Source: Chitinispirillales bacterium (GTDB lineage: Bacteria > Fibrobacterota > Chitinivibrionia > Chitinivibrionales > Chitinispirillaceae). From it: a stretch of 36,180 nucleotides of DNA. The position numbers and the translations under genes were made by a program. The stretch is taken from the NCBI GenBank assembly GCA_031254105.1, contig JAIRVB010000045.1:1-36180 (forward strand). The letters are read 5' to 3'. This document shows, one piece after another, positions 8,505-36,180 of the stretch (position 1 is its first letter; every line of letters begins with the position of its first letter). The notes under the pieces are model-generated. The model saw nothing but the letters and a program-made list of their open reading frames with translations, was not told the origin of the DNA and made no database searches.

Positions 8505-10265
8505 CTACCACCGGTACTCCGGTCTGGGAGTATAAGAAGTATGAAGTAATTCATGGGATTTGTGCGAGAGCGGCTTTTCCAGGAATTCTTCGTAAACTTT
8601 AATGATAGAAGGATTCTGGTGTGAGCAGCGTTTCACTGAATTGCCATCATCTGTATAAAGACCATAAGCCCTGTCGTTGCGCACTTTATCATCCGCGCCA
8701 TAAGGCTGACCGCCTCCGCCAACGCATCCGCCACGGCAGGCCATTACCTCAATAAAGTGGTACGGCGTTTCTTTGCCCGCCGCGAGCGCTTCCTTGACTT
8801 TATCAAGAACCGAAGAGATATTAGCCATTCCATGAGCAACGGCCACTCTGACCTCTGTTCCGTCTATGTCAATTTTAGCTTCCTTTACTCCGTCAAGGCC
8901 GCGGACATCTACAAGGTCTACGTTCGCAAGCTCTCTTTTTGTGATTAAATGGTACGCTGTTCTGAGAGCCGCTTCCATAACACCTCCTGTCGCGCCAAAA
9001 ATCGTACCGGCGCCGCTGTATTCGCCAAGGATAGTATCTACACCCTCTTCAGGCAGATTATTAAAATCAATACCCGCAGATTTTATCATACGGCTCAGTT
9101 CACGTGTGGTAAGAGAGACATCAATGTCCTTACGACCGCTTGAAGACATCTCCTTTGAGCGGGAGATCTCAAACTTCTTGGCGGTGCAGGGCATGATTGA
9201 CACCATGAAAATTTTATCAGGATCAATGCCTATCTTCTTAGCGTAATATGTCTTTGACAGCGCGCCAAGCATAGCCTGCGGCGACTTTGCGGTTGAGAAA
9301 TAAGGAATCATCTCGTGATAGAACTTCTCCAAATAATCAACCCATGCGGGGCAGCATGTGGTGATAAGCGGAAGCGGAGCTTCTTTTGTCGGTTTACTGA
9401 ACCTTTCAACAAACTCGCTTCCCTCTTCCATAATGGTAAGATCCGCTGTAAAGTTTGTGTCAAAAACTGCTTTGAATCCAAGACGCCTGAGCGCGGCGTA
9501 AAGCTTTCCGGTTTGTATAGAACCTGAGGGCAGTCCGAAAGCCTCGCCGATAGCAACGCGGACAGCGGGGGCGATTTGAACTACAATGTGTACATCGGGT
9601 TTGCGCAGGGCGTTCCATACGATATGTTCCTCTGATTTTTCGTAGATAGCTCCTACCGGACAATGCGCCGAGCATTGACCGCATTTGATACAGGGGCTGT
9701 CATTGAGAAGAACATCAGCGGCCGGAGCGATGCGTGTTTTCTCACCGCGTCCAAGAAGTTCAAGCGCCCACACATCCTGCATCCCCTGGCAAACTTTAGC
9801 GCAGCGGCCGCACAGCACGCACTTTTCAGGATTCAGCACAAGTGAAGTGGTGCTTGTATCCTGAGGAATATCCTGAAGGCGCTGTGGGAAAGCCATCCCC
9901 CTTATGCCAAACTCAGAGGCTAACTTTTGCAACTCACAAGCCATGTTTCTGGGGCATGCTAAACAGTCATTCGGGTGAGTTGACAAAATCAACTCAACAA
10001 CAGTTTTGCGCACCTCTACGATTTCGGCATCGTGAGTGATAATGCTCATCTCCTCCTCCACCAGTGTGGCGCAGGCGCGAAGCATCTTGGGAGACCCTTC
10101 CACCTTTACGACACAAATACCGCACGCCGCCCAAGGCTCAAGATCGCGGTGCCAGCACAGCGTGGGAATGCTAACCGATACTTTACGGGCAGCCTCAAGG
10201 ATAGTAGCGCCTTGCTCTACTTCCACAGGCAGGCCGTTTATTTTTAATTTTACCATTTTGTTCAT
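8505..10265 (-). CDS. hydA: [FeFe]-hydrogenase catalytic subunit HydA (electron-bifurcating type)
   Basis: The catalytic subunit reduces protons to H2 (or oxidises H2) at an H-cluster; in HydABC complexes it works with ferredoxin and NADH together. The 586-residue protein has an N-terminal [2Fe-2S] domain (Cys37, Cys48, Cys51, Cys65), a His-ligated cluster motif (HPNDCLACPRNMAC, 97-110), two [4Fe-4S] sites (CVLCGRCAKVC 149-159; CIKCGQCSAHC 192-202) and the H-cluster domain. The H-cluster motifs are TTCCPAW (303-309), MPCTAKK (358-364) and MACRGGC (508-514). The start chosen is ATG 10265, with AAGGAG seven bases upstream. A longer frame from 10310 would translate a REP-like repeat (MDPRQRADDR) and is rejected. 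It is the last gene of the operon, 77 bp after hydB. Maturases HydEFG are not in this window. Confidence 0.95.
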   Translation of the reverse strand: MNKMVKLKINGLPVEVEQGATILEAARKVSVSIPTLCWHRDLEPWAACGICVVKVEGSPKMLRACATLVEEEMSIITHDAEIVEVRKTVVELILSTHPNDCLACPRNMACELQKLASEFGIRGMAFPQRLQDIPQDTSTTSLVLNPEKCVLCGRCAKVCQGMQDVWALELLGRGEKTRIAPAADVLLNDSPCIKCGQCSAHCPVGAIYEKSEEHIVWNALRKPDVHIVVQIAPAVRVAIGEAFGLPSGSIQTGKLYAALRRLGFKAVFDTNFTADLTIMEEGSEFVERFSKPTKEAPLPLITTCCPAWVDYLEKFYHEMIPYFSTAKSPQAMLGALSKTYYAKKIGIDPDKIFMVSIMPCTAKKFEISRSKEMSSSGRKDIDVSLTTRELSRMIKSAGIDFNNLPEEGVDTILGEYSGAGTIFGATGGVMEAALRTAYHLITKRELANVDLVDVRGLDGVKEAKIDIDGTEVRVAVAHGMANISSVLDKVKEALAAGKETPYHFIEVMACRGGCVGGGGQPYGADDKVRNDRAYGLYTDDGNSVKRCSHQNPSIIKVYEEFLEKPLSHKSHELLHTSYTPRPEYRW

Positions 10266-10284
10266 CCGTCTACTCCTTAATCTA

Positions 10285-10325
10285 TCATCCGCGCGTTGGC
10301 GGGGATCCACTGTTCTTTTTTTGTA
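10285..10325. repeat. REP-like palindromic repeat between hydB and hydA
   Basis: The stretch contains TCATCC, then GCGCGTTGGCGGGGATCC, then ACTGTTC and a T-run. It aligns with the two REP-like copies inside the 6040-6229 element, sharing the GCGGG-ATCC core, the following CTGTT and the T-run. Its palindrome is imperfect. It fills most of the 77-bp gap between hydB and hydA and could form an mRNA hairpin that adjusts relative expression. Confidence 0.6.
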
Positions 10326-10342
10326 ATGATCAACAAGAGTTC

Positions 10343-12130
10343 TTAGTTCTTGACAACGGCCTTGAATTTACATACCTCTTCGCAGACTCCGCACTTGATA
10401 CACTTTGATGTGTCAAGCGTATGCTGCTGCTTTTTCTCGCCTGTAATGGCGCCGACCGGACACTTCTTAGCGCAAAGCCCGCAGCCTATGCACTTGTCAG
10501 CCAAGATAGTGTACAGCAGCAGGTTTTTGCACTTTCCGGCAGGACATTTTTTGTCCCTGATATGCGCTTCATACTCATGCTCATAGTACTTTAAGGTAGA
10601 GATAACAGGGTTAGGAGCGGTCTGTCCGAGAGCGCATAGCGCAGCCCGTCCCATAGCCTGACTTATCTGCTTCATTTTGCGGATATCTTCCTCAGTACCG
10701 TCACCGTTTGTTATCTTTTCCAGATAGTTGTATAGCTGGCGCCCGCCAATGCGGCAGGGTGAACACTTTCCGCATGATTCATCAACTGTAAACTCAAGGT
10801 AAAACTTGGTTACATCGACCATACAGTCATCTTCATCCATTACGATCATACCGCCGGAACCCATAATAGACCCAAGCTTCGCTAAGTTCTCAAAGTCAAT
10901 TGGAGTGTCAAGATAGTCGGAGGTGATCACACCGCCTGAAGGGCCGCCTGTCTGCACAGCCTTGAACTTCTTGCCATTGGGAACTCCGCCGCCGATATCG
11001 TAAACAATGTCACGCAGAGTTGTACCCATCGGAACTTCTATAAGGCCGCTGTTTTTGATCTTTCCAGTAAGCGCAAAAACCTTTGTTCCCTTGGAAGTCT
11101 CTGTTCCGATTTTTGAGAACCAGTCTCCGCCCTTAAAAATAATGATGGGGATATTGGCCCATGTTTCCACATTGTTAATAACCGTCGGCTTACCCCAGAG
11201 TCCCTTGACAGCAGGAAACGGGGGGCGTGGAATAGGCATTCCGCGTTTTCCCTCAATTGACGCTAAGAGAGCGGTTTCTTCACCGCACACAAACGCTCCG
11301 GCGCCAAGACGAATCTCAATGTAGAAGTTAAAACCGCTGTTAAGAATATTTTCACCCAAAAGCCCCATTTCTGTTGCCTGAGCGATAGCAACTTCAAGAC
11401 GGTGAATGGCAAGCGGGTATTCCGCGCGGATGTAAATGAACCCCTTGGAGGCGCCCACTGTTTTTCCCGCAATGGCCATGGCTTCAAGCACAGAGTGAGG
11501 ATCACCCTCAAGGATACTTCTGTCCATGTACGCTCCCGGGTCGCCTTCATCGGCGTTACAAACGATATACTTCTGGTCGCTTGAAGTACTTTGAGTAAAT
11601 GACCACTTTCTCCATGTCGGAAATCCTGCGCCGCCTCTTCCGCGAAGTCCTGATTTTTTGAGTTCCTCAACCACATCTTCGGGTTTCATCTCAAAGAGTA
11701 CCTTTTCAAGCGCCAGATACCCGTCACGGGCTATGTACTCGTTTACATCCTCAGGATTAATAAAGCCGCAGTTGCGAAGCACAACGCGAATCTGTTTGCG
11801 GTAAAAATCAATATTGTCGATACTTGCCCGCTTTGAGCTCTCCTGCTTGTTGTAAAGAAGACGGCTAACTTTTCTGCCCTTGATTATGTGTTCTTCGATA
11901 AGTTCCTTAGCGTCTTCAGGCTTTACATGCACATAAAAACTCTCATCAGGAAGTATCTTAACAATAGGACCTTTTTCGCAAAAACCGAAACATCCGGTTT
12001 TCACCACCTGGTTTTCATTCAGGATATTATGATTTTCAAGCTCTTTCTGTAAAGCTTTAAAAATATCATCAGCCTTGCTGGATTCACATCCGGTACCACC
12101 GCACACTAATATATAATTATTAAATTTCAT
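10343..12130 (-). CDS. hydB: Electron-bifurcating hydrogenase subunit HydB (NuoF-like, FMN/NADH-binding)
   Basis: This subunit binds NAD(H) and FMN and is the probable site of electron bifurcation in HydABC. Its 595 residues run as follows: a thioredoxin-like [2Fe-2S] domain (Cys10, Cys15, Cys47, Cys51), a NuoF core with the glycine-rich FMN/NADH motif GRGGAGFPTW and EGDPGAYMDRSILEGDP, an SLBB region, the [4Fe-4S] site ESCGKCSPCRIGG, and a C-terminal two-cluster ferredoxin domain (CIGCGLCAKKCP; CIKCGVCEEVC). The extra N- and C-terminal domains distinguish HydB from plain NuoF. ATG 12130 has AGGGGGAGAG immediately upstream. It follows the small ferredoxin-like gene by 12 bp, consistent with one operon. 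Confidence 0.95.
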   Translation of the reverse strand: MKFNNYILVCGGTGCESSKADDIFKALQKELENHNILNENQVVKTGCFGFCEKGPIVKILPDESFYVHVKPEDAKELIEEHIIKGRKVSRLLYNKQESSKRASIDNIDFYRKQIRVVLRNCGFINPEDVNEYIARDGYLALEKVLFEMKPEDVVEELKKSGLRGRGGAGFPTWRKWSFTQSTSSDQKYIVCNADEGDPGAYMDRSILEGDPHSVLEAMAIAGKTVGASKGFIYIRAEYPLAIHRLEVAIAQATEMGLLGENILNSGFNFYIEIRLGAGAFVCGEETALLASIEGKRGMPIPRPPFPAVKGLWGKPTVINNVETWANIPIIIFKGGDWFSKIGTETSKGTKVFALTGKIKNSGLIEVPMGTTLRDIVYDIGGGVPNGKKFKAVQTGGPSGGVITSDYLDTPIDFENLAKLGSIMGSGGMIVMDEDDCMVDVTKFYLEFTVDESCGKCSPCRIGGRQLYNYLEKITNGDGTEEDIRKMKQISQAMGRAALCALGQTAPNPVISTLKYYEHEYEAHIRDKKCPAGKCKNLLLYTILADKCIGCGLCAKKCPVGAITGEKKQQHTLDTSKCIKCGVCEEVCKFKAVVKN

Positions 12131-12142
12131 CTCTCCCCCTGA

Positions 12143-12532
12143 TCACTTGAGAATGTCTGCCGCGGGTTTATCAACAACATGACCGTCAAGAAGCTTGCGC
12201 TCTATCAGGTGCTCGTTTACAATGCGCTTCGCTACATCCGCCTTAACATTGCCGTAAATTATATCCGGCATTCCAGGCATTTGTACCTCAACAGTAGGCT
12301 CTACATTACACAAACCTATGCATCCGGTCTGAGTAACTGTTACATCGGTCAAACCTTTAGCGTCAATCTCATCAAGAAACGCGTTGAACGCTTCCTTGGC
12401 GCCCGCAGCTATACCGCATGTGCCCATACCAACGATAATATGAACCGACTTGCCTTCGGAATCACGCCGGCTCAGTTCATTTTTCTTGACTTCACGGAGC
12501 TTTTTAAGATCCGCCAAACTTATTTTACCCAT
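12143..12532 (-). CDS. Small thioredoxin-fold [2Fe-2S]-ferredoxin-like protein of the hyd operon
   Basis: This 129-residue protein resembles the thioredoxin-like [2Fe-2S] ferredoxin family (NuoE C-terminal half, HydB N-terminus), with GMGTCGIAAGAKEA, TQTGCIGLCNVEPTVEV and a C-terminal ...VNEHLIER helix. Only three of the four usual cluster cysteines are present: Cys39, Cys71 and Cys75. The position expected for the first Cys (residue 34) is Val. It may bind no [2Fe-2S] cluster, or use another ligand, and could be a structural or regulatory subunit like the extra small proteins in clostridial and acetogen hyd operons. Its start overlaps the end of the ATPase gene by 13 bp, indicating translational coupling, and it is 12 bp before hydB. 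Confidence 0.85.
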   Translation of the reverse strand: MGKISLADLKKLREVKKNELSRRDSEGKSVHIIVGMGTCGIAAGAKEAFNAFLDEIDAKGLTDVTVTQTGCIGLCNVEPTVEVQMPGMPDIIYGNVKADVAKRIVNEHLIERKLLDGHVVDKPAADILK

Positions 12533-13110
12533 TTATCAATTCCCCCCTGTTCAAATAATTTCTTATTTTCAATCAGCTCTTCTTCCATTGACCGCAGGTA
12601 TTTGCGCAACGCAATAAGCGCCTGGGCGTCCCGCAAATCTCCCAGCGCATCCGCAACTTCGCTGCGTGATACAGCCCAGGAATCATCATCAAAAATTCTA
12701 TTAAACTTAAGCTCAAACTCCCCCGGCTGCCCCATAAGGGTTACAAGCGCGTTTACAAGATTTCCCACAGGCGGTGCGTCAATGTTTTTTGAATCATAGC
12801 TGAAAGACAGCGATGTCCCGACATTCTTCTCACTTGTAATATCCCATGAGCCTTTACACTGATCCGCAAGCTGGGCGAGAAACGATAATCCCAAACCCAC
12901 CCTTCGTTTCGCGTGCTTGATACCATCCGTAAAAAATGGATCGCGAACTCTCGCAAGCGTCTTATCATCCATACCGCAGCCATTATCGGATATGCATACC
13001 TTAATACCTTTATCCTGACTTTCATACAGATCAACAGTAACTTCGTCAGCCTTTGCTTCAACAGAATTCTGTACCAGATCAACTATGTAATCAGAGAGGG
13101 TATAATGCAT
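12520..13110 (-). CDS. Histidine-kinase-type ATPase (HATPase_c) in the hyd operon
   Basis: The 196-residue protein is a stand-alone GHKL/HATPase_c domain: N-box DLVQNSVEA (11-19, Asn15), G1 box DNGCGM (42-47), then RVGLGLSFL (70-78, G2) and a GTSLSF strand. No dimerisation histidine, sensor or membrane segment is present, so it is not a complete sensor kinase; an anti-sigma-factor-like or ATP-sensing role is possible. A helical C-terminal tail (about 150-190) is rich in Glu and Lys. Similar ATPase genes sit between hydC and hydD-like genes in some acetogen and clostridial hydrogenase operons; their function is not established to my knowledge. It lies 18 bp after hydC and overlaps the next gene by 13 bp. 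Confidence 0.85.
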   Translation of the reverse strand: MHYTLSDYIVDLVQNSVEAKADEVTVDLYESQDKGIKVCISDNGCGMDDKTLARVRDPFFTDGIKHAKRRVGLGLSFLAQLADQCKGSWDITSEKNVGTSLSFSYDSKNIDAPPVGNLVNALVTLMGQPGEFELKFNRIFDDDSWAVSRSEVADALGDLRDAQALIALRKYLRSMEEELIENKKLFEQGGIDKWVK

Positions 13111-13128
13111 CTATCCGCTCCAACCTCC

Positions 13129-13611
13129 TTAACCTTTATACTTCTCAAGGATCCCGGCAACTTTTGCTACCGGAACGCAGCCGAACACTTCGCCGTCTAT
13201 GGTAAGCGCCGGCGCAAGTCCGCAGCAGCCTACGCAACGAACCGCCTGAACCGAAAATTGGCCGTCTTCCGTAGTAGCGTTAACCCCTATCCCTAAAAGC
13301 CTTTCGAGTTCCTTAAGCAGATCTTCCCCGCCTTTCAGATAACAGGCGGTTCCCATACAGACGGAGATAATATGTTTGCCGGGCTTTTCTAATTTGAAGT
13401 AATGATAGAATGTCATCACCCCGTAGATTTTAGCCAGCGGGACATCAAGCTTTTTAGAAACAGTCAGGGCTACATCGCGGGGGATGTACCTGTAAACCTG
13501 CTGAACCTTATGCAGGACCATGATAAGGTTGCCCGGCTTATCCTTCCATTCATTTATGAAAGCATCAAGCTCAGGCGTCAGTTCAGTTAAAACCGGCATG
13601 CTTTGGGGCAT
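13129..13611 (-). CDS. hydC: Electron-bifurcating hydrogenase subunit HydC (NuoE-like)
   Basis: The product is a 160-residue NuoE-type subunit carrying one [2Fe-2S] cluster that passes electrons within the HydABC complex. The N-terminal helical bundle (about 10-70, VLHKVQQVYRYIPRDVA, GVMTFYHYF) is followed by the thioredoxin-like domain with Cys85, Cys90, Cys126 and Cys130 (CMGTAC; CVGCCG), the complete ligand set. The ATG at 13611 is supported by AGGAGG seven bases upstream. It is the first gene of the operon; its promoter probably lies in the 340-bp divergent region that also holds an operator-like palindrome. Confidence 0.95.
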   Translation of the reverse strand: MPQSMPVLTELTPELDAFINEWKDKPGNLIMVLHKVQQVYRYIPRDVALTVSKKLDVPLAKIYGVMTFYHYFKLEKPGKHIISVCMGTACYLKGGEDLLKELERLLGIGVNATTEDGQFSVQAVRCVGCCGLAPALTIDGEVFGCVPVAKVAGILEKYKG

Positions 13612-14296: not shown

Positions 14297-14423
14297 TTCT
14301 GTGTAACATAGCATTACGGGCACATGGTAAATAATATTTCTTTCGCAATGAATCCCCCCAAATAATATTTGACGAGCCGCCTTTCTACGCTGTTTTTCAG
14401 CATTGAATGATGATATTATATTT
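14297..14423. other. Intergenic lead-in to the tandem array
   Basis: No gene is seen. AAATAATATTT occurs twice in this AT-rich stretch, about 40 bp apart, once with a base change. It leads directly into the 33-bp repeats. Confidence 0.3.
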
Positions 14424-14903
14424 GGATAATGTACAAAACAGGCTAACATTACCATCTGTTTTTGTGCAATACATGGCAATCTCAGCCTCGTAATATGTGC
14501 AAAACCAGACATTGTTATCATTGAAAAATGTGCAAAATTAGCTTACATTATCATAGATATTTGTGCAATACTGTATAATATTAACCTCTGAATATGTACG
14601 AAACAAGTCATTGTTATCATTGAAAAACGTGCTAAATTAGCTTATATTACCATAGATATTTGTGCAATATAGAATAATATTAACCCAGGAATATGTAAAA
14701 AATCAGGCATTATTATCATTGAAAAATGTGCAAAATTAGCTTATATTATCACAGATATTTGTGCAGTATCAGATAATATTAATCTCGTAATATGTGTAAA
14801 ATCAGATATTATTATCATTGAAAAACGTGCAAAATAAGCTATCATTATCATAGATATTTGTGCAAAACTAAGTAACATTACCCACGAAAAATGTACGCCC
14901 TCA
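14424..14903. repeat. Tandem array of about fifteen 33-bp units with 99-bp higher-order pattern
   Basis: Units of 32-34 bp follow head to tail, each with a TGTGCAA-like word near its start (variants TGTACAA, CGTGCTA, TGTAAAA, TGTGTAA), and a TTATCAT or ATTAACC word near its end. Three unit types alternate: one beginning GAAAAATGTGCAAAATTAGC, one beginning GATATTTGTGCA, one beginning GAATATGTA or GTAATATGTG. The third type ends TTATCATT. So the array is really about four copies of a 99-bp trimer plus diverged end units. There are no conserved repeat/unique spacer blocks, so it is not CRISPR. The 33-bp spacing is close to three helical turns. Function is unknown. Confidence 0.9.
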
Positions 14904-14927
14904 TTAAATAGTATTATTTTATTCCTG

Positions 14928-14943
14928 TAATTACGCGTAATTA
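14928..14943. promoter_or_regulatory. Perfect 16-bp palindrome upstream of the DUF4143 ATPase gene
   Basis: TAATTACGCGTAATTA is its own reverse complement. It lies 47 bp before the ATG at 14991 and just after the tandem array, followed by TATATATTTAATTAAA. The position suits a dimeric repressor site overlapping a promoter. Confidence 0.45.
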
Positions 14944-14990
14944 TATATATTTAATTAAAGACCCTCTAAAACCTTGTAGAAGGAGCCCTC

Positions 14991-16310
14991 ATGGACAGGT
15001 TAATTTTCGAAGACCTTTTAGAGTGGAAAAATCGAAGAGAGAAAATGCCCCTTATTCTTACAGGTGCAAGGCAGGTAGGAAAGACATGGCTTATGAGAGA
15101 GCTGGGGAAAAGGCATTTTAAAAACACCGCGTATATCTCGTTTGATTTAAACCCTGAATTAAGCAGGACGCTTGAGACTACAATTTCTCCCGCGGAAATC
15201 CTGCCGATTTTGCAGTCGGAAACCGGCGTCCCGATTACGCCCGATACACTTATCATTTTTGATGAGATACAGGAATCGCCGCGCGCATTGCTTTCTCTAA
15301 AATATTTTTGTGAGAATGCGCCGGAGTATAACATAATAGCGGCAGGGTCAACCCTTGGCGTAATGCTTCATAAACACAAATCTTTTCCTGTCGGCAAGGT
15401 GGAGTTTCTCAGCGTTCATCCGCTTTCGTTTTTTGAATTCTTAGACGCAACAGGCGAAAATGAGCTTTTGAAGTTTATTCTTCAAAATCCACCTCAAAAT
15501 TACACACCGTTTCACGAAAAGTTAATCAGACATCTGCGCATATACCTATATGTTGGAGGAATGCCGGCGGTTATTAACGAATATGTGAAAAACGGCAGTT
15601 TTGACAAAGTCCGAAAAGTGCAAAATTATATACTGAACGCCTATGACAGAGATTTTTCAAAGCACACAAAAGAGTCGTTTTCATCAAAACTGCGCATGCT
15701 CTGGCAGTCGGTTCCGTCGCAGTTAGCAAAAGAGAATAAAAAATTTACTTATGGAGCTGTAAAATCAGGATCTCGCGGCAGAGATTTTGAGACTGCCATA
15801 CAGTGGATGAGAGACAGCTCGCTGTTAGAAAAAATCAACAGGATCACAACAGCTAAAATGCCGCTCAAAGCGTATGAAGACTTCAGCGCCTTTAAGATAT
15901 ACCTCAACGATACAGGACTCCTCTGCGCAATGGCTGAAGTCGGTATGGAGATGATTGCGAACCGGGAAGCGCTCTTTATGGAGTTTAAGGGGGCTATCGC
16001 TGAACAATTCGTTTTTCAGGAGCTGAGACAATCTTTAAGCAACAGCCTGTTCTACTGGTCAAACGACAGCGGAAGCGCGGAAATAGACTTTCTCACACAG
16101 GACGCAAACAGTAACATAATCCCAATTGAGGTAAAATCCGGCATTAATCTAAGGGCAAAAAGTTTAGGGGTTTATATTGACAAATATTCACCAAAGTACA
16201 GCATAAGAACATCCCTTGCGCACTACAAGATAAGCATGCCGGACAATATAATAGATATGCCGCTTTACGCTGTTGCGAATATCAAAAATATTCTTGATAA
16301 CGGCGGCTGA
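14991..16310 (+). CDS. AAA ATPase with DUF4143 / PD-(D/E)XK C-terminal domain
   Basis: The 439-residue product is a P-loop ATPase of the AAA_14/DUF4143 family. Walker A is GARQVGKT (25-32), Walker B is LIIFDEIQ (87-94), and a sensor-like AAGSTLGVML follows. The C-terminal DUF4143 part includes a nuclease-like core (AEIDFLTQD ... IIPIEVKSG, about 360-385) with the Asp and Glu-x-Lys of a PD-(D/E)XK fold. The family is abundant in anaerobes and its physiological role is unsettled; DNA-related or mobile/defence functions have been suggested. AAGGAG lies upstream of ATG 14991. Immediately 5' are the 33-bp array and a perfect palindrome, so the gene may be linked to them. Confidence 0.88.
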   Translation: MDRLIFEDLLEWKNRREKMPLILTGARQVGKTWLMRELGKRHFKNTAYISFDLNPELSRTLETTISPAEILPILQSETGVPITPDTLIIFDEIQESPRALLSLKYFCENAPEYNIIAAGSTLGVMLHKHKSFPVGKVEFLSVHPLSFFEFLDATGENELLKFILQNPPQNYTPFHEKLIRHLRIYLYVGGMPAVINEYVKNGSFDKVRKVQNYILNAYDRDFSKHTKESFSSKLRMLWQSVPSQLAKENKKFTYGAVKSGSRGRDFETAIQWMRDSSLLEKINRITTAKMPLKAYEDFSAFKIYLNDTGLLCAMAEVGMEMIANREALFMEFKGAIAEQFVFQELRQSLSNSLFYWSNDSGSAEIDFLTQDANSNIIPIEVKSGINLRAKSLGVYIDKYSPKYSIRTSLAHYKISMPDNIIDMPLYAVANIKNILDNGG

Positions 16311-16675: not shown

Positions 16676-17098
16676 ATGGCATTACCAGAAAAAAGATGGA
16701 TACAGCGGTTTGACAATTATTTGAGCGTATTACAGCATTTAGAAAGTTTTGTTGCCATACAAGATACACGCCCGCTGTCCGTTGCCGAAGAATTCGCGAT
16801 AATAAAAGCATTTGAACTGGTATATGAATGCGCATGGAATGTGCTTAAAGATTATTTGCTTGAAAAAGGATATGTCGAGATACACGGCTCGCGTGACGCG
16901 GTACGAAACGCTTTTCGTGTCGGGCTTATAGATGACGGCGAAATTTGGTTTGATATGATAAAAAATCGAAACACCACCGCTCACGCATACGATGAAGAAA
17001 CCGCGCAAAATGTATCTTTTGTCGTTTCAAACAATTATATGGATGAATTTAGAAAACTGAAAGTAAAATTTGAAAAATACAGGCAGGAAAAAGAATAA
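16676..17098 (+). CDS. HEPN-domain toxin (HepT-like, HI0074 family)
   Basis: The 140-residue all-alpha protein fits the 'nucleotidyltransferase substrate-binding protein' HI0074 family, now seen as HEPN ribonuclease toxins. The active-site motif is R98-N-T-T-A-H103 (IKNRNTTAHAYDEE), matching Rx4H. The rest is amphipathic helices (FAIIKAFELVYECAWNVLKDYLLEKG). In HEPN/MNT systems the MNT partner inactivates HEPN by AMPylating a nearby Tyr; Tyr105, two residues after the His, is a candidate. Its TAA overlaps the ATG of the MNT gene by one base (TAATG), so the pair is translationally coupled. AAGGA upstream of ATG 16676 is a plausible ribosome binding site. Confidence 0.88.
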   Translation: MALPEKRWIQRFDNYLSVLQHLESFVAIQDTRPLSVAEEFAIIKAFELVYECAWNVLKDYLLEKGYVEIHGSRDAVRNAFRVGLIDDGEIWFDMIKNRNTTAHAYDEETAQNVSFVVSNNYMDEFRKLKVKFEKYRQEKE

Positions 17099-17394
17099 TG
17101 TTCGGACTTCCCGACAAAACCGTAGCCTTAATAAACGAAATATTCACTAAATACCCAGCTATCGAAAAAGTACTAATATATGGCTCCCGCGCAAGAGGCG
17201 ACTATAGAAACGGATCTGATATCGACTTAACGGTAATCGGCGACATTACCGTAAGAGATAAAATTCACATCTCAGGACTTATTGACGATTTACCAATACC
17301 TTACATGTGTGATTTGTCAATTTTTAAAAATATAAAAAATGAAAATTTAGTTGAGCATATCGAGCGGGTCGGACAGGTTTTTTATGAGAGATAA
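17098..17394 (+). CDS. MNT-domain nucleotidyltransferase antitoxin
   Basis: The 98-residue minimal nucleotidyltransferase carries the signature GSRARG (29-34) followed by GSDIDL (39-44), i.e. GSx10DxD with Asp41 and Asp43. The third acidic position may be Asp72 (YMCDLSIF). Proteins of this size pair with HEPN toxins and neutralise them by adding AMP. It starts inside the HEPN stop codon. Nothing follows for 234 bp except a minus-strand remnant, so the module is two genes only. Confidence 0.9.
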   Translation: MFGLPDKTVALINEIFTKYPAIEKVLIYGSRARGDYRNGSDIDLTVIGDITVRDKIHISGLIDDLPIPYMCDLSIFKNIKNENLVEHIERVGQVFYER

Positions 17395-35513: not shown

Positions 35514-36180
35514 CTTTGTTACCTTAATTTGTGAAATAAACAGAAAACCCCACCGGCCGGGGATAGAATATAATTAAGTAAAATACATTATTACGCGTCA
35601 GGTACGGTAGGATGCAGAATATATTCAATACCGAAAAATACAGAAACAACATCTTTGATGAAATGAAAGGTGATTATTTTGTCAGAAGAACCTGGCCCTC
35701 AGAAAACTAAACTACCGCTTCCGCCTCGGTTATCACATTAGCCGGAAAAACCACAGGCCATGGACAATGAATTGATTTTCCGAATTTTGTTATAAACGGA
35801 TCTGGAAACCATCAATGTAGACTATGGCGCGATTCATATTTTTTATCCATACAAAAAAGCCGCTCAATCTTATTGAAAAAGGAGCAGCCAGGTTCAGGCA
35901 GTAACCCTAAAGGACGCGTTGTTTCTTGAGAGATTAAATTCGTAAAAAGAGAGTTGGCTGCTCCGTCACGAAGAGGGTGGCAGCCATGTCCTGTCCAACT
36001 AAGTCCAGGGGCGGCACAATTTTTTAAAGAGAGTTGGCTGCTCCGTCACGGAGAGGGTGGCAGCCATGTCCTGTCCAGCTAAGTCCAGGGGTGGTACAGA
36101 TATAATATAACCAACTTTTATACCTGATGCAAGAACTTTTTTAATTATTTTTGGCCGGGGCGCATACGTTTAATTTAATG
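35514..36180. other. 667-bp right-end region without a recognised gene
   Basis: It holds the leader of the aminotransferase gene, a short plus-strand frame (TTG 35679 to TAG 35741, 20 codons, product starting MSEEPGPQKTKLPLPP, with AAAGG eight bases upstream) that could be a gene remnant, and the structured 80-bp direct repeats described separately. A minus-strand frame of about 75 codons through the repeats has no start and is probably chance. Confidence 0.4.
35881..36100. repeat. Two 80-bp direct repeats with alternative hairpin potential
   Basis: Copy 1 starts at 35946 and copy 2 at 36026; over about 73 bases they differ by four transitions. Each contains TGGCTGC and GCAGCCA as stem arms, an inner CTCCG-TCA-CGGAG hairpin (perfect in copy 2, one mismatch in copy 1) and a CCTG/CAGG pair downstream. 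Upstream, GGAGCAGCCA (35881-35890) is complementary over ten bases to TGGCTGCTCC in each copy (35955-35964 and 36035-36044), so two exclusive folds are possible. No known RNA family is recognised. It could be a structured RNA, a transcription-control element or the end of a mobile element. Confidence 0.75.

Follow-up and report, generated by a model that had tools for sequence, protein, structure and literature searches.

In the iterons of plasmid Rep proteins and in autoregulated operators, direct repeats a whole number of helical turns apart precede the gene for the presumed binder, and Orc1/Cdc6 genes often adjoin the sites that their products bind. Archaeal Orc1/Cdc6, seen on origin DNA in 2QBY and 2V1U, reads repeated DNA sites, while in type III toxin-antitoxin systems the short tandem repeats of ToxI lie directly upstream of a single effector gene. 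PDC-S01, in which an ATPase is joined to a domain of the PD-(D/E)XK superfamily, is listed among the commonest candidate defences, with validation pending for most PDCs (PMC12988326). The accessible portion of the literature searched on PDC-S01 and DUF4143 contains no mention of a promoter-proximal 32/33-bp array. Such an array precedes a PDC-S01 gene in the 36,180-nucleotide stretch of a Chitinispirillales contig analysed here (the window); it is undescribed in the literature searched, which left out most subscription journals, and priority is not proven. We think it fairly probable that the array is a set of helically phased operator sites at the AAA_14-DUF4143 promoter, with the gene's own protein as the likely reader and probably as its autorepressor. 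The features of the locus are as follows.

14416 to 14924, forward strand: tandem array of 15 sites, with TGT at 14430 + 33k (k = 0 to 14), a pitch of exactly 33 bp and A-B-C trimers that give a 99-bp period.

14878 to 14895, forward strand: gene-proximal unit TTACCCACGAAAAATGTA, the best match in the window to the unit shared by the family (variable half, A5, TGTA).

14896 to 14990, forward strand: leader from the array to the start codon, the presumed promoter region, with TAGTATTATTTTA after the last unit and an AAGGAG ribosome-binding site.

14928 to 14943, no strand assigned: perfect 16-bp palindrome TAATTACGCGTAATTA.

14991 to 16310, forward strand: AAA_14-DUF4143 ATPase of 439 aa, PADLOC PDC-S01, assigned from Pfam, PADLOC and a structure model.

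A preliminary description of this DNA had reported about fifteen 33-bp units grouped in 99-bp trimers, and three analyses bear this out. Tandem Repeats Finder (TRF) returned a period of 33 at 14492-14867 and a period of 99 at 14461-14865 (4.1 copies, 82% matches, score 515), and base autocorrelation over 14424-14903 was highest at 99 (0.785), with 0.595 at 33 and 0.582 at 66. Ungapped alignment placed 14 full units with zero indels, with a fifteenth TGT site at 14892 and every interval exactly 33 bp, which narrows the 32-34-bp range first given. TGTGCAA-like words occur in nearly all units, as had been noted, and the array is richer in A+T (71%) than the window (59%). No open frame crosses the array in any frame, and a coding repeat (33 bp being 11 codons) was rejected because stop codons are present in all frames; Rfam gave no RNA family match at the array. 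A search of the 3.68-Mb genome, in which occurrence was checked by pattern matching, found the array sequence to be unique. Dispersed copies were likewise rejected, as the sole weak blastn match is 30 bp long and not an array; it falls within sequence that looks coding, ahead of a gene resembling a DNA polymerase. A separate direct repeat of about 80 bp (1.9 copies, 94% matches) lies at the contig end, at 35946-36098.

The neighbours had been called as DRTGG-like and AAA/DUF4143 genes, and Pfam agrees, with the DRTGG assignment exactly at the cut-off (25.2 bits) and AAA_14 (96 bits) and DUF4143 (124 bits) both above theirs. The palindrome that had been placed near the ATPase gene is also present, and is absent from the relatives read. 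A CRISPR array was rejected, since the 33-bp units have a short core and none of the ten neighbours scanned is a cas gene; a plasmid iteron or replication origin was rejected, with no Rep or DnaA among the ten genes and several paralogous arrays per genome; and a partition centromere was rejected, with no ParA/ParB-type gene among the ten neighbours.

Comparison with relatives assigns the array, by sequence, to the AAA_14-DUF4143 gene and not to the DRTGG gene. The DRTGG orthologue in the same genus has neither an array nor a DUF4143 neighbour, and the link to DRTGG was rejected on that ground. A direct DNA search with the array in 60 relatives gave no match because the sequence diverges, and the link to relatives emerged only through protein searches with the neighbouring proteins. 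The closest AAA_14-DUF4143 proteins, 78% identical, come from G029 and G038, two genomes in a different family within the order, where three TTTTGTGCAA/TATGTGCAA sites lie at exactly 33 + 33 bp directly before the start codons. More distant paralogues also have arrays, built on other words such as CTCCCCACGACTTT, CTTTTTGTCGCCAATAA, GCATATTTTCAGACCTTG and GAGAAAAGTGTA. Two DUF4143 paralogues in the window's own genome, L031 (G000:C46:20148-21452) and L033 (G000:C15:47336-48137), contain in-frame stops and are probably decaying; L031 has no clear array, as if arrays decay along with their genes.

The protein is a full-length match to the PADLOC profile PDLC04786 (PDC-S01; 548.7 bits, residues 1-433), and all eight members of the alignment used to scan genomes for homologues match the PDC-S01 profile; a more diverse alignment of 13 proteins was too variable for scanning. 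Invariant across these 13 are G25-R27-Q28-G30-K31 and D91-E92 (Walker A/B), E364, E380 and K382, and a PD-(D/E)XK-like motif surrounds E364/D366...E380-x-K382; E364...E380-x-K382 fit a PD-(D/E)XK domain. The alignment and the model together point to a winged-helix-like segment at about 228-285, after the AAA part. A sequence search found no solved structure of any relative. In the structure model (pLDDT 85), the best structural matches are the archaeal STAND-type ATPases PAB2304 (2QEN, Z 16.6) and SSO1545 (2FNA, Z 15.4), over the AAA and winged-helix parts and at just 13-14% identity, followed by plant NLRs and CED-4 and then by ORC. By structure comparison alone, Z is 14-16 for the STAND-type ATPases, NLRs and CED-4 and about 11 for ORC; Foldseek gave E values of 6.8e-9 to 2QEN and about 1e-5 to Orc1/Cdc6 (2QBY, 2V1U), which likewise has an AAA domain and a winged helix. 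The ATPase modelled for the protein is STAND-like, with a winged helix and a PD-(D/E)XK-like domain. Unlike Orc1/Cdc6, the array genes give no indication of a replication role; a genome has several of them, their contexts are unrelated and their motifs differ.

The homologues came from whole genomes, from IMG/VR, from 80 genomes spread over many phyla and from annotated plasmids. Of 197 AAA_14-DUF4143 genes, 143 have direct repeats with a 32- or 33-bp pitch immediately before the start codon, from hosts that include Bacteroidota, Clostridia, Treponema, Gastranaerophilales, Chloroflexi and an archaeal MAG; the co-occurrence of array and DUF4143 gene that the preliminary description had raised finds strong support in these relatives. 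A 12-bp window was repeated at 33 bp in 103 of the 197 and at 32 bp in 59, as against at most 12 at each other pitch from 26 to 41, and the downstream regions of the same genes gave 10 and 7. The first 122 upstream regions behaved alike, with 33-bp repeats in 70 and 32-bp repeats in 36, at most 10 at other pitches from 20 to 60, 10 and 8 in downstream regions and 1 each in shuffles. The best of 20 of its own shuffles was beaten by 98 of 123 upstream regions and by 9 downstream regions. For 222 other ORFs of the same loci, the two pitches were found upstream in 5% and 2.7%, compared with 49% and 30% for family genes. Plasmid loci found later added Parabacteroides, Glaesserella, Segatella, Collinsella and Acinetobacter, with six of eight beating 50 shuffles at 32/33-bp steps (L158 narrowly); the repeats of the other two, L156 and L160, one from Bacteroides (a pair of units spaced by about 66 bp) and one from Fusobacterium (a 32-bp pair), are visible by eye only and do not rise above shuffles. 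The remaining 27% of homologues have no repeat by this simple test, for which weak arrays, wrong starts or true absence are the alternatives.

Steps between units number 185 of 33 bp and 101 of 32 bp, and the 99 arrays with three or more units are all 33 (53), all 32 (25) or mixed (21). This pitch in relatives strongly supports the earlier suggestion of selection on helical phase, and the idea of a multi-site binding platform is, at the level of sequence, strongly supported as well. Copy number is mostly 2-4, with two units only in 43 of 142 arrays, and the 15 copies in the window are extreme. Its 99-bp trimer order and 15 units suggest recent expansion, which is what a neutral minisatellite arising by unequal exchange would predict. 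As an account of the array this is hardly credible, and for the family it is refuted, as 143 of 197 relatives, though their sequences differ, have this pitch at this position, and elsewhere it stays at background level. Random minisatellites scattered elsewhere with no linked gene, which the preliminary description had set against its own proposal, are likewise contradicted by these linked arrays. Only the extra length in the window may be neutral, and the long trimeric array there seems to have grown recently from a usual operator of three or four units.

Aligned on TG, the unit has its 5-7 bp variable half at -12 to -7 and an A/T tract from -6 to -2; position -1 is rich in purines, and TGT follows, often as TGTA. 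The W5-nTGT core of the unit is common to most families. The pitch is strict and the spacer sequence is not conserved. Variable halves are 71-84% identical for proteins more than 70% identical and 28-40% identical for proteins below 60%, whereas the core stays at 0.56-0.95. Five paralogues in genome G029 have five different motifs, and a whole-genome pattern search with three arrays from two genomes found each at one place only, before its own gene. In these comparisons the variable half is specific to the particular gene. Two loci of Prevotella and Paludibacteraceae (L090, L138) have CACTTTTTAGTCGCACTTTTTG units, with two CACTTTTT cores within one unit.

Given the widely shared core and the high A+T content of the arrays, W5-nTGT might instead be read by a regulator or nucleoid protein of the host that silences these horizontally moving genes, and motifs are slightly more alike within a genome (0.35) than in matched between-genome pairs (0.29, P = 0.055), a difference that could stem from a host factor or from base composition. 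We regard this explanation as unlikely, because core and pitch are the same in hosts from many phyla, whose regulators are unrelated, paralogues in one genome differ in their variable halves, and the upstream regions of other genes have no array, which occupies one place per genome where checked.

The array appears to end at the gene's own promoter in this family, with promoters here being predicted. TATAAT-like boxes lie between the last unit and the start codon at 88 of 142 loci, against 47 expected, with distance peaks at +2, +13 and +25 from TG, and they are not enriched before the array (46 vs 50) or within it (56 vs 67). In the gap, the -7 box of Bacteroidota, TAnnTTTG, occurs 10 times against 4.7 expected, which are small numbers, and a simple sigma-70 scan listed no promoter after the array in the window. 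Because the predicted -10-like box follows the array and none is in excess before it, transcription should start downstream of the array. Of the functions first suggested for the platform, only the regulatory one fits, because the array ends at a predicted promoter and occurs nowhere else in the genome where checked; no observation favours a part in partition or in the nucleoid.

The position of the promoter also bears on a ToxIN-like RNA antitoxin, in which transcribed repeats would yield an RNA that restrains the downstream protein. The array does resemble ToxI, whose short tandem repeats have a similar length, in directly preceding one nuclease-like gene. It differs in that the promoter-like box comes after the repeats with no excess before them, no terminator-like hairpin lies between array and gene at any of 142 loci, conservation is limited to the unit core, no Rfam match was obtained and the protein is not a ToxN/AbiQ-type toxin. 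A type III toxin-antitoxin assignment was rejected, as the fold is not that of ToxN/AbiQ, CptN or TenpN, Pfam gives AAA_14-DUF4143 and the model resembles STAND-type ATPases; RNA restraint of the protein seems very improbable.

Across families the array goes with the protein, and it was not found in front of other genes, which points to the protein as the binder. Under autoregulation, the reader of the core and of the gene-identifying half would most likely be the gene's own protein, with the winged helix making the contact and perhaps the N-terminus and the nuclease-like C-terminal domain as well. Copies bound 32-33 bp apart, or three turns, would sit on one face of the DNA and be able to touch, and would occlude the -35/-10 region, which the last unit reaches; the protein would therefore probably repress its own gene until its ATP state or infection changes it. 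We infer self-binding, repression and a physiological link to defence. Such an operator would share with Rep iterons and autoregulated operators direct repeats upstream of the presumed binder's gene, but its pitch is three turns rather than about two, its half-site is gene-specific and the protein is an ATPase-nuclease, not a Rep or classical repressor.

Covariation between motif and protein, tested against traits simulated on the protein tree, is modest. TGT/core covaries with winged-helix residues 253-271 (p 0.004-0.015 at rates 0.7-2), with another segment ranking first at a simulated rate of 0.4. Weaker signals link -9..-7 with the N-terminus (p 0.045) and -12..-10 with residues 380-394 (p 0.07), and the variable half as a block gave no significant covariation (p 0.18-0.33). 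Because several tests were made, these values are only suggestive. The winged helix of NLRs, which are structural relatives, is not known to read DNA.

The STAND/NLR-like model with its PD-(D/E)XK-like domain, membership of a candidate defence family, the strict pitch without a conserved spacer and the suggestive covariation with the N-terminus and C-terminal domain would also suit a sensing or assembly platform, on which the ATPase oligomerises along phased sites with its nuclease held in check until phage DNA, replication or transcription disturbs the array and releases or activates the nuclease. Two units are enough in 43 of 142 arrays, and autoregulation explains all observations too; we consider such a platform distinctly unlikely. 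A DNA address system is a speculative extension to which we give somewhat more, though still little, credence: each STAND-like ATPase-nuclease would have its own word at three-turn pitch before its own gene, an NLR-like oligomer there would act as both repressor and sensor, and words would diverge, insulating paralogues in one cell.

That most of the related genes examined, across many bacterial groups, have an array of their own points to a common and so far undescribed on/off switch for one of the commonest suspected immune genes of microbes. A conserved promoter array predicts what the protein binds, with each member's DNA word readable from sequence; it also helps in correcting gene starts and opens both regulation and mode of action to testing.

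Among distant DUF4143 clades, a 32-bp repeat was found in 8 of 20 and was clear in just one of the six first read, so that in these clades the feature is weaker or has another spacing. Five distant proteins (L171, L172, L173, L175 and L182; 23-30% identity) have upstream arrays near 32 bp, with about six copies in L175, and the copies of L035 are seemingly closer, about 22-23 bp. At L148, a second strong 32-bp repeat signal (score 34) lies 3' of the DUF4143 match, perhaps the array of another copy. In the window, the ATPase gene is directly followed, at 16676-17394, by a HepT-like nucleotidyltransferase substrate-binding and Polbeta nucleotidyltransferase pair, an MNT/HepT-type toxin-antitoxin-like module with weak PADLOC matches to PDC-S09 and PDC-M05. 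An [FeFe]-hydrogenase operon occupies 8505-13611 on the reverse strand, with NADH-oxidising subunits, thioredoxin-like ferredoxins and a protein with a histidine-kinase-type ATPase domain.
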